Shown piece after piece: positions 1 to 9,702 of a DNA stretch of 37,222 nucleotides. The notes under the pieces are model-generated. The model was not told where the DNA came from and did no database searches. It saw only the letters and a program-made list of their open reading frames with translations. The stretch comes from Acidimicrobiaceae bacterium (GTDB lineage: Bacteria; Actinomycetota; Acidimicrobiia; Acidimicrobiales; Aldehydirespiratoraceae). The position numbers and the translations under genes are program-made. The stretch's first letter is position 1; each line of letters begins with the position of its first letter. The stretch lies in contig VYBO01000050.1 of the NCBI GenBank assembly GCA_009844405.1, positions 1-37,222 on the forward strand, given 5' to 3'.

Positions 1-783
1 CGACGCCGACTTGGCCACCAGGTCGGCCTCCAGCCCGTGCCCGCAGGCCTCGTGGAACAGCACCCCGCCGCCCCCGGGCCCCACCACCACGGGCATCTCG
101 CCGCTGGGCGCGGGTCGGGCGGTGAGCTTGGTGAGGGCCCGCTGCGAGGCCCGGCGGGCCATCTCCTCCACGTCGTAGAGGTCGAACAATTCGAAGCCGA
201 CGGTCCGTCCCGCCGACTCGCGGCCGGTCTGCATGCCGGTGTCGCCGGTGGCCACGCACGACACCGAGAACAGGGTGCGCACCTGGTCGTCGCTGGTGAA
301 CAGCCCGTCGCTGTCGGCCACCAGGATGCGGCGGCGACCGTCGCCGTACCGGGCTGAGACCTGGGTGATGGCGCCTCCGGCGGAGCGGGCCGCAGCGTCC
401 GCGGCGGTGAGCAGCGCCACCTTGCGGTCCTTGGGCACCTCCTCGGGAGGGATGCGAACCTCGAGGCGCCGCGGCGTCCGGACGGCCGACACCGCGACGG
501 TGCGGGTGCCGCCGCCGCCCCGGCGGGCAGCCGCCGCGGCCGCCCCGGCCGCCGAGGCCAGGCCGGACTCGCTGAGGTCCGCGGTGTGGGCGAACCCGGT
601 GGTGTCACCGGCCACGACCCGGATGCCGGCGCCGCGGTCGCGTCCCGACACGACCTCCTCGACACGGCCGTCGTCGAGGATCGCGGAGGACGAGCGCCTG
701 TCTTCCGCGAATATCTCGGCGAAGTCGGCTCCGGTGCGCATCGCGACCGCCAGGGTGCGGTTCACAAGATCGGTATCGAGCAT
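1..783 (-). CDS. tldD: TldD/PmbA-family metalloprotease, N-terminal part (runs off left edge)
   Basis: The first 261 codons are present and the rest lies beyond base 1. The protein starts MLDTDLVNRTLAVAMRTGAD. Near residue 245 it carries HEACGHGLEAD, which matches the HExxxH zinc-protease motif of TldD; PmbA partners lack it, so TldD is the better name. TldD acts with PmbA (TldE) to degrade or mature unstructured peptides in the cytoplasm. Its start codon overlaps, head to head, a possible alternative start of the PAP2 gene. A TACAGT box (792-797, minus strand) lies 8 bases before the ATG, so the transcript is probably leaderless. Family assignment is firm; completeness cannot be judged from this window. 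Confidence 0.88.
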   Translation of the reverse strand, partial: MLDTDLVNRTLAVAMRTGADFAEIFAEDRRSSSAILDDGRVEEVVSGRDRGAGIRVVAGDTTGFAHTADLSESGLASAAGAAAAAARRGGGGTRTVAVSAVRTPRRLEVRIPPEEVPKDRKVALLTAADAAARSAGGAITQVSARYGDGRRRILVADSDGLFTSDDQVRTLFSVSCVATGDTGMQTGRESAGRTVGFELFDLYDVEEMARRASQRALTKLTARPAPSGEMPVVVGPGGGGVLFHEACGHGLEADLVAKSAS

Positions 784-1693: not shown

Positions 1694-3535
1694 ATGCAAC
1701 TCGACGCGATCACGGGTCCTGACGACCTGCGCGAGCGCTCCCACAGGGAGCTCGACGACCTCTGCGGGCAGATCCGCGCCCGCATCATCGAGGCTGTCAC
1801 CGCCCGGGGCGGCCATCTTGGATCGAACCTCGGGGCGGTGGAGCTCACCGTCGCCCTGCACCGCATCTTCCACTCGCCCCACGATGTGATCCTGTGGGAC
1901 ACGGGCCATCAGGCCTACGTCCACAAGATGCTCACCGGGCGGGCCTCCGACTTCGACTCGCTGCGCACCGCCGGGGGCCTCGCGGGATACCCGTCGCGAG
2001 CCGAGTCCCCCCACGACTGGATCGAGAACAGCCACGCCTCCACCGTGCTGTCCTACGCCCACGGCCTGGCCACCGCGTTCGAGTTCTCCGACACGCGGCG
2101 CCGCGTCGTGGCCGTGGTGGGTGACGGAGCCCTGACGGGAGGCATGGCCTTCGAGGGGCTGAACAACATCGGCCACAGCGGCCGCAACGTGATCATCGTG
2201 CTCAACGACAACGGCCGCAGCTACGCCCCAACGGTCTCGAGGCTCTCCGAGAGTCTGGTGCGCTTCCGCTCCAACCCCAAGATCATGCGCCGATCCGACC
2301 GCCTCGAGGAGGTGGCAGAGCGCATCCCCTGGGTGGGTGACACCCTCCAGCGGGGCATGAAGATGTCGAAGGCCGCCCTGCGTGAGTTGTGGGACTCGGC
2401 CGGCTTCTTCGAGAACCTGGGCGTGCGCTACCTCGGCCCCTTCGACGGGCACGACATAGCCGGGCTGGAAGAGGCGCTGTCCAATGCGGCCCAGTTCGAC
2501 GGGCCGGTCGTGGTCCATGTGCTCACCCAGAAGGGGCGCGGCTACGGCCCGGCCGAGGAGGACACCGTCAAGCACATGCACGACGTGGGCAAGGTGAAGT
2601 CGGGCACCTACACCGGCATGTTCTCCGAAATGATGGTCAAGCTGGGCGGCCTGCACCCCGAGGTGGTGGCCATCACCGCGGCCATGCCCGATTCCACCGG
2701 TCTGCTGCCGTTCCGGGAGCACTTCGGCGACCGCTGCATCGACGTGGGCATCGCCGAGCAGCACGCGGTGACCTCGGCCGTCGGCATGGCCATGGGAGGG
2801 CTTCGGCCGTTCTTCGCGGTGTACAGCACCTTCCTGAGCCGGGCCTTCGACCAGGTCAATCTGGACTGCGGCATGCACCAGGCGCCGGTGGTGTTCTGCA
2901 TCGACCGGGCAGGCATCACCGGAGACGACGGGCCGTCGCACCACGGCGTGCTCGACATGGTGCTGCTCACCAAGGTTCCCGGGATGGTGGTGCTGGCCCC
3001 GTCGTCGCTCCAGGAGCTGGAGCGGATGATGCTCGACGCCATGGACATGACCGGCGGCCCGGTCGCCATCCGCTGGCCCAAGACCGCGGCTCGCAACGTC
3101 TCGGTGGAGGAAGTGGGCTCGGGGCTGCGGGCCCGCAAGGCCCGTGCCGCGGACGGCCGGCTGTGCCTGATCGGTGTCGGGAAGATGCTGGAGGCGTGCG
3201 AGCAGGCCGCCGAGCTCCTCGCCCACGACGGCGTGGAGGCCACCGTGTGGGATCCCCGGGCCGTGAGCCCGCTGTGCGACTGGATGCTCGCCGACGCGGC
3301 AGAACACGAGATGGTGGTGACCGTCGAGGACGGGCTGCGCACCGGTGGTGCCGGCACGGCCATCCGCGACGGGTTGCTGGAGCGGGCCGAGGCCGCCGGG
3401 CAGGCTGCTCCCAGGGTCCGGGTGCTGGGTGTGCCGCTCGACTACCTCCCCCACGGCAAGCCCGACGCCATCCTGGCCGATCTGGGCCTGGACGCCGCGG
3501 GGATCGCAGCCACCGTCAAGCAAGAACTGCTGTAG
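1694..3535 (+). CDS. dxs: 1-deoxy-D-xylulose-5-phosphate synthase
   Basis: Dxs condenses pyruvate and glyceraldehyde-3-phosphate to DXP, the first step of the MEP isoprenoid pathway. The 613-residue protein has the expected layout: a thiamine-diphosphate binding part (DTGHQAYVHKMLTGR near 75, GDGALTGGMAFEGLNN near 145), a central pyrimidine-binding domain with the catalytic EQHAVT near 356, and a C-terminal transketolase domain. It is slightly shorter than E. coli Dxs (620). AGGAGG ends about 8 bases before the ATG, so this start uses a Shine-Dalgarno site, unlike most genes nearby. It is probably co-transcribed with the PAP2 gene. A hairpin follows the stop codon. Confidence 0.97.
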   Translation: MQLDAITGPDDLRERSHRELDDLCGQIRARIIEAVTARGGHLGSNLGAVELTVALHRIFHSPHDVILWDTGHQAYVHKMLTGRASDFDSLRTAGGLAGYPSRAESPHDWIENSHASTVLSYAHGLATAFEFSDTRRRVVAVVGDGALTGGMAFEGLNNIGHSGRNVIIVLNDNGRSYAPTVSRLSESLVRFRSNPKIMRRSDRLEEVAERIPWVGDTLQRGMKMSKAALRELWDSAGFFENLGVRYLGPFDGHDIAGLEEALSNAAQFDGPVVVHVLTQKGRGYGPAEEDTVKHMHDVGKVKSGTYTGMFSEMMVKLGGLHPEVVAITAAMPDSTGLLPFREHFGDRCIDVGIAEQHAVTSAVGMAMGGLRPFFAVYSTFLSRAFDQVNLDCGMHQAPVVFCIDRAGITGDDGPSHHGVLDMVLLTKVPGMVVLAPSSLQELERMMLDAMDMTGGPVAIRWPKTAARNVSVEEVGSGLRARKARAADGRLCLIGVGKMLEACEQAAELLAHDGVEATVWDPRAVSPLCDWMLADAAEHEMVVTVEDGLRTGGAGTAIRDGLLERAEAAGQAAPRVRVLGVPLDYLPHGKPDAILADLGLDAAGIAATVKQELL

Positions 3536-7821: not shown

Positions 7822-8187
7822 TCAGACCGCGGCCAGCATGAACGCGTCCACGGGCATTAGCCGCCCGTTCACCGGGTCGACGGCCAGACCGAAGATCTCC
7901 AGGGTGACCGCCCCGAGAAGGGGCATCGAGTCCTCGTCCCAGAACACGACCGGCGACATGGCCTGCCTGCCGTCGAGCCGCATCCGGGTCTCGCCGAAGC
8001 CCCGCTCCACGCGGCTGCCGTCGGCCAGGATGAAGCCCCTCGACTCGTGCGGCGTCACCCCCAGGCCCTCGAGGATCGAGGCCGGCAGCACGGTGTACGT
8101 CGCGCCCGAGTCGACCATGACCTCCACCTCCTCGTAGCGGCGGCCCTGCGGATCGGCGACGCCCAGCGTCACCGCGAATGTCCCCAT
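7822..8187 (-). CDS. Retropepsin-like (clan AA) aspartic protease
   Basis: The 121-residue protein carries one retropepsin-type active site, VMVDSGATYTVLP, near residue 29. The second signature is LLGAVTLEIFGLAVD near residue 92. Single-domain clan AA proteases work as dimers. There is no signal peptide or membrane segment, so it should act in the cytoplasm; the target is unknown. Start 8187 is supported by GGAGG 5 bases upstream. That ATG shares its A with the stop of a 9-codon leader ORF (TGATG), so the two are probably translationally coupled. The frame is open upstream to 8286, but those codons lie across the promoter and do not look coding. Confidence 0.78.
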   Translation of the reverse strand: MGTFAVTLGVADPQGRRYEEVEVMVDSGATYTVLPASILEGLGVTPHESRGFILADGSRVERGFGETRMRLDGRQAMSPVVFWDEDSMPLLGAVTLEIFGLAVDPVNGRLMPVDAFMLAAV

Positions 8188-8216
8188 CAGTCCTCCAAGC
8201 TCATGCACAACAACAT
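8187..8216 (-). CDS. Leaderless 9-codon upstream ORF (MLLCMSLED)
   Basis: A TACGGT box (8224-8229, minus strand) lies 7 bases before ATG 8216, the same spacing as the leaderless genes in this window. The ORF encodes MLLCMSLED and ends in TGA, overlapping the protease ATG as TGATG. The Shine-Dalgarno site for the protease (GGAGG) lies inside the last codons of the leader. It could be a regulatory leader peptide or simply a device that loads ribosomes. No family signature is possible at this length. Confidence 0.5.
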   Translation of the reverse strand: MLLCMSLED

Positions 8217-8275
8217 GCGAGGGACCGTACCCGCTCCGTCCCCTGCCCACAACATTGAAATGCACCCAAATAGAA

Positions 8276-9702
8276 CTATAGATCAAATCCCGTAGCTGCC
8301 GGCTGCCGAAGACCCGGAGCGGACTTTGATCCGTTCTCGGTCGCCCTGAAGACGTACCCGGGCTGTCCGTGCTCGAAGATGTCGAGGCCGCTGATCTCCA
8401 CCTCGGGCGGCACCCGGAGTCCGACCGTGTGCTTGATCACTGCGAACAGGATCCCGGTGGTGGCCGCCACCCACACGAACACCAGCGCCGCGCCGATGAA
8501 CTGCACCAGCAGATGGTCGAAGCCGCCGCCATAGAACAGCCCGGCGTTGTCGGTCGCCACGAAGCCGTCGCCGTGGCGGGCGAACAGGCCCACCGCGAGC
8601 GTGCCCCACAAGCCGCACACGCCGTGCACCGAGATGGCGCCCACCGGGTCGTCGATGCGGACCCGGTCGAAGAACGCCACCGATCCCACGACGATCACAC
8701 CGGCGACCGTTCCCGCCAGCACGGCGCCCACCGGGGTCATCGTGGCCGTGCCCGCGGTGATGCCGACCAGTCCGGCCAGCACCCCGTTGCCCGTCATGGC
8801 CACGTCGAGATGGCCGGTCCGCAACCACACGGCTGCGGCCGCGGTCACGCCACCGGCCGCAGCCGCCAACATCGTCGTCACTGCTGCTCTCATCACGACA
8901 TCGTCGGCAGCCAGTTCCGAGCCCGCGTTGAACCCGAACCAGCCGAACCACAGCACCAGGACGCCGACCACGACGAAGGCCACGCTGTGTCCGGGCATTG
9001 TCCGCGACTTGCCGTGACGGTCGTACTTGCCGATGCGGGGCCCCAGGAAGATCGCCCCCATCATCGCGGCCCAGCCCCCGGTGCTGTGCACGATCGTCGA
9101 GCCGGCGAAATCTCCGAACTTGGCGTCGCCGATGGCCAGGTCGGCCAGCAGCCCCTCGCCGCTCCAGAACGAGTGGACCACCACCGGGTAGATCAGAGCA
9201 GTCATGAAGAAGCTGAACACCAGGTAGGCCGACATCTTGGTCCGCTCGGCCATGGCCCCGAAGCGATCGTCACCGCAGTTGCCGCGAAGACCACCTGGAA
9301 GAAGAAGTCGGTGTACATGCTGAGGCCGCCCTCGGCGCTGAACCCCAACTCGGCACCGCTGAGGAAGAAGGTGTCGGTGCCCAGCAGCGAGCCGGCGTCG
9401 GTGCCGTAGGCGATGCCGTAGCCGACGGCGAAGAACGCCAAAGCGCCCACACACATGTCAGCGAGGTTCTTGGCCATGATGTTGCCGACATTCTTGGCCC
9501 TCGTCATGCCGGCCTCGACCATCCCGAACCCGGCCTGCATGATGAACACCAGCACACCGGCCATCAGCACCCAGAGATTGTCGATGACGACGGTCTCCGC
9601 CGACACGCCGACGTCCTGGGCCACAGCCGGGGCCGTGTTCAACACCACGACGCCAGCGGCTATAGCCGCTCCCACCCAGAACTTCCTGTGTATCCTTCGC
9701 AT
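8276..9702 (-). pseudogene. amt: Ammonium transporter, interrupted by a single-base frameshift
   Basis: Two adjacent frames together make a full Amt/AmtB channel of about 475 residues. It has a signal peptide ending near APAVAQ, then about 11 membrane segments. The first frame runs from ATG 9702 to SMYTDFFFQVVFAATAVTIAS and then loses homology. The second resumes at AMAERTKMSAYLVFSF and runs to the stop at 8276. The junction is a C run at 9256-9259 on the plus strand; one more base would restore IASGAMAERTK. AGGAGGG precedes the ATG by 9 bases. Real inactivation and a homopolymer sequencing error are both possible; everything else in the gene looks functional. No glnK follows it. Confidence 0.85.

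Follow-up and report, generated by a model that had tools for sequence, protein, structure and literature searches.

Organization of the protease locus

The window, by which we mean the whole 37,222-nt stretch of DNA that was analysed, is contig C56 of an Acidimicrobiia MAG of 3.35 Mb in 150 contigs. On its minus strand, it carries a gene for a clan AA (retropepsin-like) aspartic protease of 121 aa with a DSGA motif (7822..8187). The product matches PF13650 with a score of 28.1 bits, above the cut-off of 24.3, and its TIGR03698 score of 41.5 bits lies under the curated cut-off of 57.35. The gene closes with a TGA codon at 7824-7822, and we take the ATG at 8187-8185 to be the right start codon because the MGTF start is common to the close homologs.

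What lies in front of this start codon? Read from the sequence, all the elements of the junction are on the minus strand. A -10-like box of the form TANNNT, TACGGT (8224..8229), is located 36 nt 5′ of the protease ATG, and a -35-like TTGTGG (8247..8252) is found 17 nt 5′ of this box. The box is followed by a 7-base spacer, CCCTCGC (8223-8217), and then by an ATG (8216-8214) at the inferred transcription start. This ATG opens a mini-ORF of nine codons, MLLCMSLED* (8187..8216), whose stop codon TGA (8189-8187) shares one base with the protease start in the overlap TGATG (8185..8189). The Shine-Dalgarno (SD) site of the protease, GGAGGA (8191..8196), falls within codons 7-9 of this leader. The initial annotation had described the box, the 7 bases, the ATG, the peptide, the stop/start overlap and the internal SD site exactly, without naming the strand. 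Another -10-like sequence, TATAGT, occurs farther upstream (8275..8280).

The gene upstream encodes an ammonium transporter (8276-9702, minus strand). Compared with the sister species G009, one base is missing near position 9262, producing a frameshift, and the C-terminus of the transporter in the window is truncated and altered. Judging from this alignment, the gene may be a pseudogene or may reflect an assembly error.

Protease family and close homologs

The protease belongs to a multi-copy family, with 12 matches in its own genome and matches in 18 of the 100 genomes searched, and the copies often stand in tandem as pairs or triplets (e.g., G000:C6, G008:C1 and G003:C10). There were 100 family matches including the window; the window and 73 others were used, and 72 copies were left after two duplicates were taken out. 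The 26 excluded matches were late-starting or divergent, plus one full-length copy omitted inadvertently (G008:C15:298934); on later inspection, the TGATG junction was absent from this copy and from six other excluded ones. The 8-mer TGAAATAT is found upstream of 11 of the 72 copies, together with overlapping neighbours (GCATGAAATATA), and it is possibly a promoter or operator element shared by family copies.

Only three close full-length homologs were found: C28 in the same genome (78% at the amino acid level), G004 (81%) and G003 (77%). The search of genome contigs for close homologs returned 4 loci, the genus search at E <= 1e-30 found 4 places, spread over 3 of the 16 genomes, and no close homologs were found in viral contigs or in plasmids. 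All three homologs adjoin a tRNA-Val(cac) gene, and the window copy adjoins the ammonium transporter gene.

The copies in the window and C28 are close paralogs, with 86% nucleotide identity and 80% identity at the third codon positions of the protease. In C28, TATATT is followed after 7 nt by ATG TTG CTG AGC ATG GAA GGG GGT CTC TGATG, which encodes MLLSMEGGL*; the length of the ORF (9 codons), the spacing of the box and the TGATG overlap are unchanged. Between the two copies, 13/15 positions are identical in leader codons 1-5, 3/12 in codons 6-9 and 2/17 in the promoter spacer, and farther upstream the identity is 18/80, which is unalignable. The promoter skeleton is present in three homologs: in addition to the window, it is found at a nearly equal distance to the protease start in C28 (TTGCAG-17-TATATT) and in G003 (TTGCGG-17-TACGTT). 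The same three sequences have in common a block, GTTGYTG-N2-CA, just past the start point (GTTGTTG-N2-CA in G003). In G003, AGG occupies the position of the leader ATG, the junction reads GTATG with no TGATG, and the nearest upstream ATG lies 2 nt past the box. G004 has an 11-codon ORF closing in TGATG, with no box and with non-homologous upstream sequence, and this ORF is preceded by a 3′ fragment of a gene from an unrelated coiled-coil family. The fragment lies between tRNA-Val and the protease in L039 (G004:C2) at about 2700-2830; the coiled-coil family is itself multi-copy, with matches in 14 of the 16 genus genomes.

The locus is also present in the sister species G009, with about 93% identity on both flanks. 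Of the protease, nothing but the final 18 codons is left there (L124, G009:C19, about 2904-3045), directly 3′ of the ammonium transporter gene, which is intact and has a longer tail. Because the protease has nearly been lost in G009, the protease unit seems to be dispensable and subject to fast turnover, and this too makes fine tuning by a regulatory leader less likely.

Leaderless-type starts and chance expectation

Are leaderless starts used by this organism? We sampled 209 kb of its genome, in which 129 genes were crudely called. Of 785 start candidates, 23 had TANNNT at a distance of 6, 7 or 8 nt upstream, compared with 4 of 2679 internal RTG codons in the same 209 kb. The modal spacing in this sample was 7, which the TACGGT-7-ATG of the window matches. 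In a genus sample of 609 kb from three genomes, 76 of 442 crude genes had a leaderless-type start; in both samples, the genes were open frames with GC3 skew, called with no gene finder. From these counts, leaderless initiation is very probably in use in the host, with a spacing of 7 being typical.

Within the protease family, TANNNT-6..8-RTG in frame with the protease was found in 13 of the 72 copies (e.g., G013:C227, G006:C70, G008:C1 and G012:C13), compared with 0.93 expected and with 0 of 200 shuffles reaching 13, although some of these copies are closely related to one another and the independent cases are fewer. In these 13 copies, the N-terminal extension often reads MT..RGR..LPF.DWEGPVG. 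An SD-like GGGAGGGA precedes an internal GTG in several of them, and dual starts are possible in these in-frame copies as judged from their sequences.

How often would such a junction arise by chance? When the 120 nt upstream were shuffled 20,000 times with dinucleotides preserved, 10% of the shuffles contained an ATG mini-ORF that closes on the start codon, and in 0.7% such a mini-ORF was also preceded by TANNNT at 5-9 nt. Three of the 72 family copies (the window, C28 and G004; 1.45 expected) have an ATG ORF that ends in TGATG, and two have a box with a coupled mini-ORF (0.07 expected; 0/200 shuffles reach 2). Because the window and C28 are close paralogs, however, these two full-layout matches amount to about one event. 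The full layout was found in 0/68 of the more distant family copies and in neither of the other close homologs, G003 and G004. Mini-ORFs behind a box occur in 9/72 family copies against 4.6 expected, a count reached by 12 of 200 shuffles. In the 609-kb genus sample, 4 of 24 box-preceded mini-ORFs that end close to a gene start were coupled, compared with 10 of 55 when the box was moved away, which is no enrichment; the four cases comprise one TGATG (the window itself) and three RTGA. On these counts, selection on the coupling is weakly supported. The window leader has G or C at 8/8 third positions and 2/8 second positions (p=0.007). We set this GC skew aside as proof of coding, since G003, with no closed ORF, gives 7 versus 3 of 8 in the same register.

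The initial annotation had proposed a leaderless leader, with its conservation across related protease loci as a check. The proposal gains from the frequency of such starts in the organism and in the protease family and from the leader frame kept in the C28 paralog. It loses from the absence of the frame in G003, from the non-homologous, boxless ORF in G004 and from the lack of coupling enrichment in the genus sample.

Interpretation and comparison with known systems

We consider the best explanation of the junction to be a coupled leaderless mini-ORF that delivers ribosomes to the protease, a reading that we hold tentatively, at somewhat less than an even chance. From the layout, we infer that the first base transcribed from the promoter TTGTGG-17-TACGGT would be the A of the leader ATG or a base beside it. 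The message would then open with AUG and be translated from its 5′ end by leaderless initiation. The nine-codon ORF would have no function as a peptide. Instead, the leader ribosome would cross the protease SD site, terminate at UGA and be able to restart on the overlapping protease AUG. This coupled delivery would add to direct SD-led initiation, so that the mini-ORF would serve as a ribosome-delivery device, with a putative benefit. In favour of coupling, C28 keeps the box, the 7-nt spacing, the nine codons and the TGATG despite unalignable upstream DNA; against it, the protease owns a good SD site, so that coupling is not needed. The initial annotation had suggested that translation of the leader would expose or occupy this site. 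Exposure is unlikely, there being no strong predicted structure that hides the site (predicted folding of the mRNA 5′ end is no stronger than that of shuffled sequences, z +0.4 to +0.8), and occupation or ribosome delivery fits better.

A serious rival, close behind this explanation and with a substantial if smaller chance of being right, is that the protease is an ordinary SD-led gene. Its promoter would give a 29-nt 5′ UTR with a good SD site, as in many other family copies; the ATG at the start point and the TG before the start codon would be coincidental, and it would be of no consequence whether the mini-ORF is translated. Many family copies have a box 32-39 nt before the start and no mini-ORF (25 of the 115 TANNNT boxes within 150 nt upstream of the 72 copies lie there), and the restriction of the full layout to the window and C28, the number of mini-ORFs behind boxes and the absence of genus-wide coupling enrichment all fit this view. 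It is less easily reconciled with the 0.7% frequency of the full layout among shuffles of the locus, with the retention of that layout in C28 even though the spacer and codons 6-9 have diverged, and with the mycobacterial rule, which predicts that an AUG at the 5′ end is translated.

Could transcription start elsewhere? If TATAGT (8280-8275) were the real promoter, the mRNA would start near 8268 and the leader ATG would be internal, or a GTG at 8265 would serve as the start and add 26 aa at the N-terminus. TATAGT is the better -10 match, with 5/6 consensus positions, and in-frame leaderless-type extensions are known from the 13 family copies described above, but it has no convincing -35 element (CCGGCA at 16 nt) and there is no box at that distance in C28 or G003, and we regard this reading as improbable. 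The N-terminal extension from GTG 8265 is disfavoured, in that its spacing of 9 lies beyond the 6-8 peak and the extension shows no coding GC skew (13/25 GC3, 11/25 GC2). Equally improbable in our judgement is that the GTTGYTG-N2-CA block is a DNA or RNA operator and the ORF a by-product of it: the block does persist in G003, which lacks the start or stop codon of the leader, but the comparison comprises only three sequences, the block has no known regulator, and no dyad common to all three was seen by eye. Finally, the cysteine-responsive control that the initial annotation had considered, in which ribosomes would slow at the Cys codon under cysteine shortage and alter protease expression, is rejected as highly implausible: the leader does contain a UGC codon at position 4, but this is its single Cys codon, with no Cys run and with Ser in C28, the Rfam search of the window gave no family except tRNA and no leader family, the 5′ fold is not unusual, the one site from a simple terminator scan (8234-8217) is at chance level (0.6 expected), and the downstream gene encodes an aspartic protease outside sulfur metabolism.

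Returning to the ribosome-delivery reading, we can also place it in a wider speculation, which we think unlikely. The retropepsin-like protease genes of the genus might be fast-turnover units, each with a promoter of its own and two points of entry for ribosomes, the first a leaderless 5′ codon and the second an internal SD-led codon. The level or isoform of the protease might then depend on how initiation is divided between the two, for example under stress. On this reading, the first entry would be in frame in 13/72 copies, giving an N-terminal extension, and out of frame in the window and C28, giving a delivery mini-ORF. If the ribosome-delivery reading is true, the range of coupled leaderless small ORFs would reach beyond mycobacteria into a further class of actinobacteria, and one gene family would have both in-frame and out-of-frame leaderless starts; taken alone, the finding is modest. 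Among the titles listed by our literature searches, none dealt with this protease leader or with leaderless coupling in Acidimicrobiia.

Three known systems come closest, one being the coupled leaderless small ORFs of mycobacteria. According to Shell et al. (2015, PMC4633059), mycobacteria need an RTG at the start point for leaderless initiation, and such a codon suffices; small ORFs coupled by RTGA are over-represented in them, and the linkage can persist while the peptide diverges. A 2025 review (PMC12548453) describes, in its account of short upstream ORFs, the delivery of ribosomes to the coupled gene, and we propose this mechanism for the window mini-ORF. Like the small ORFs described by Shell et al., that of the window has an RTG at the inferred transcription start and a stop/start overlap, and its nine codons directly before the gene are inside their range of 5-50 codons; its peptide is also poorly conserved, with the layout kept in one paralog. 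It differs in that the overlap is TGATG (one base) instead of RTGA (four bases), the host belongs to the Acidimicrobiia and not to the Mycobacteriales, coupling is not enriched in the genus sample, and the start point and translation of the mini-ORF are predicted. Because of its TGATG, the window mini-ORF would work like this class but stand beside it, not strictly in it. It does have the features of the wider class of leaderless small ORFs upstream of a gene, namely a -10 box and, after about 7 nt, an RTG opening a small ORF. The polycysteine leaderless short ORFs, which have contiguous Cys codons according to a review (PMC9031893) that covers Canestrari et al. 2020, resemble the window leader as short leaderless-type ORFs that precede a gene and contain Cys; unlike them, the window leader has no contiguous Cys codons, its Cys is not conserved and its target is unrelated to cysteine. 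A further parallel is the 5′-terminal AUG of E. coli ptrB (Beck and Janssen 2017, as cited in PMC9031893), where, in another species and before another gene, an AUG at the mRNA 5′ end can likewise alter the translation of the gene directly downstream.
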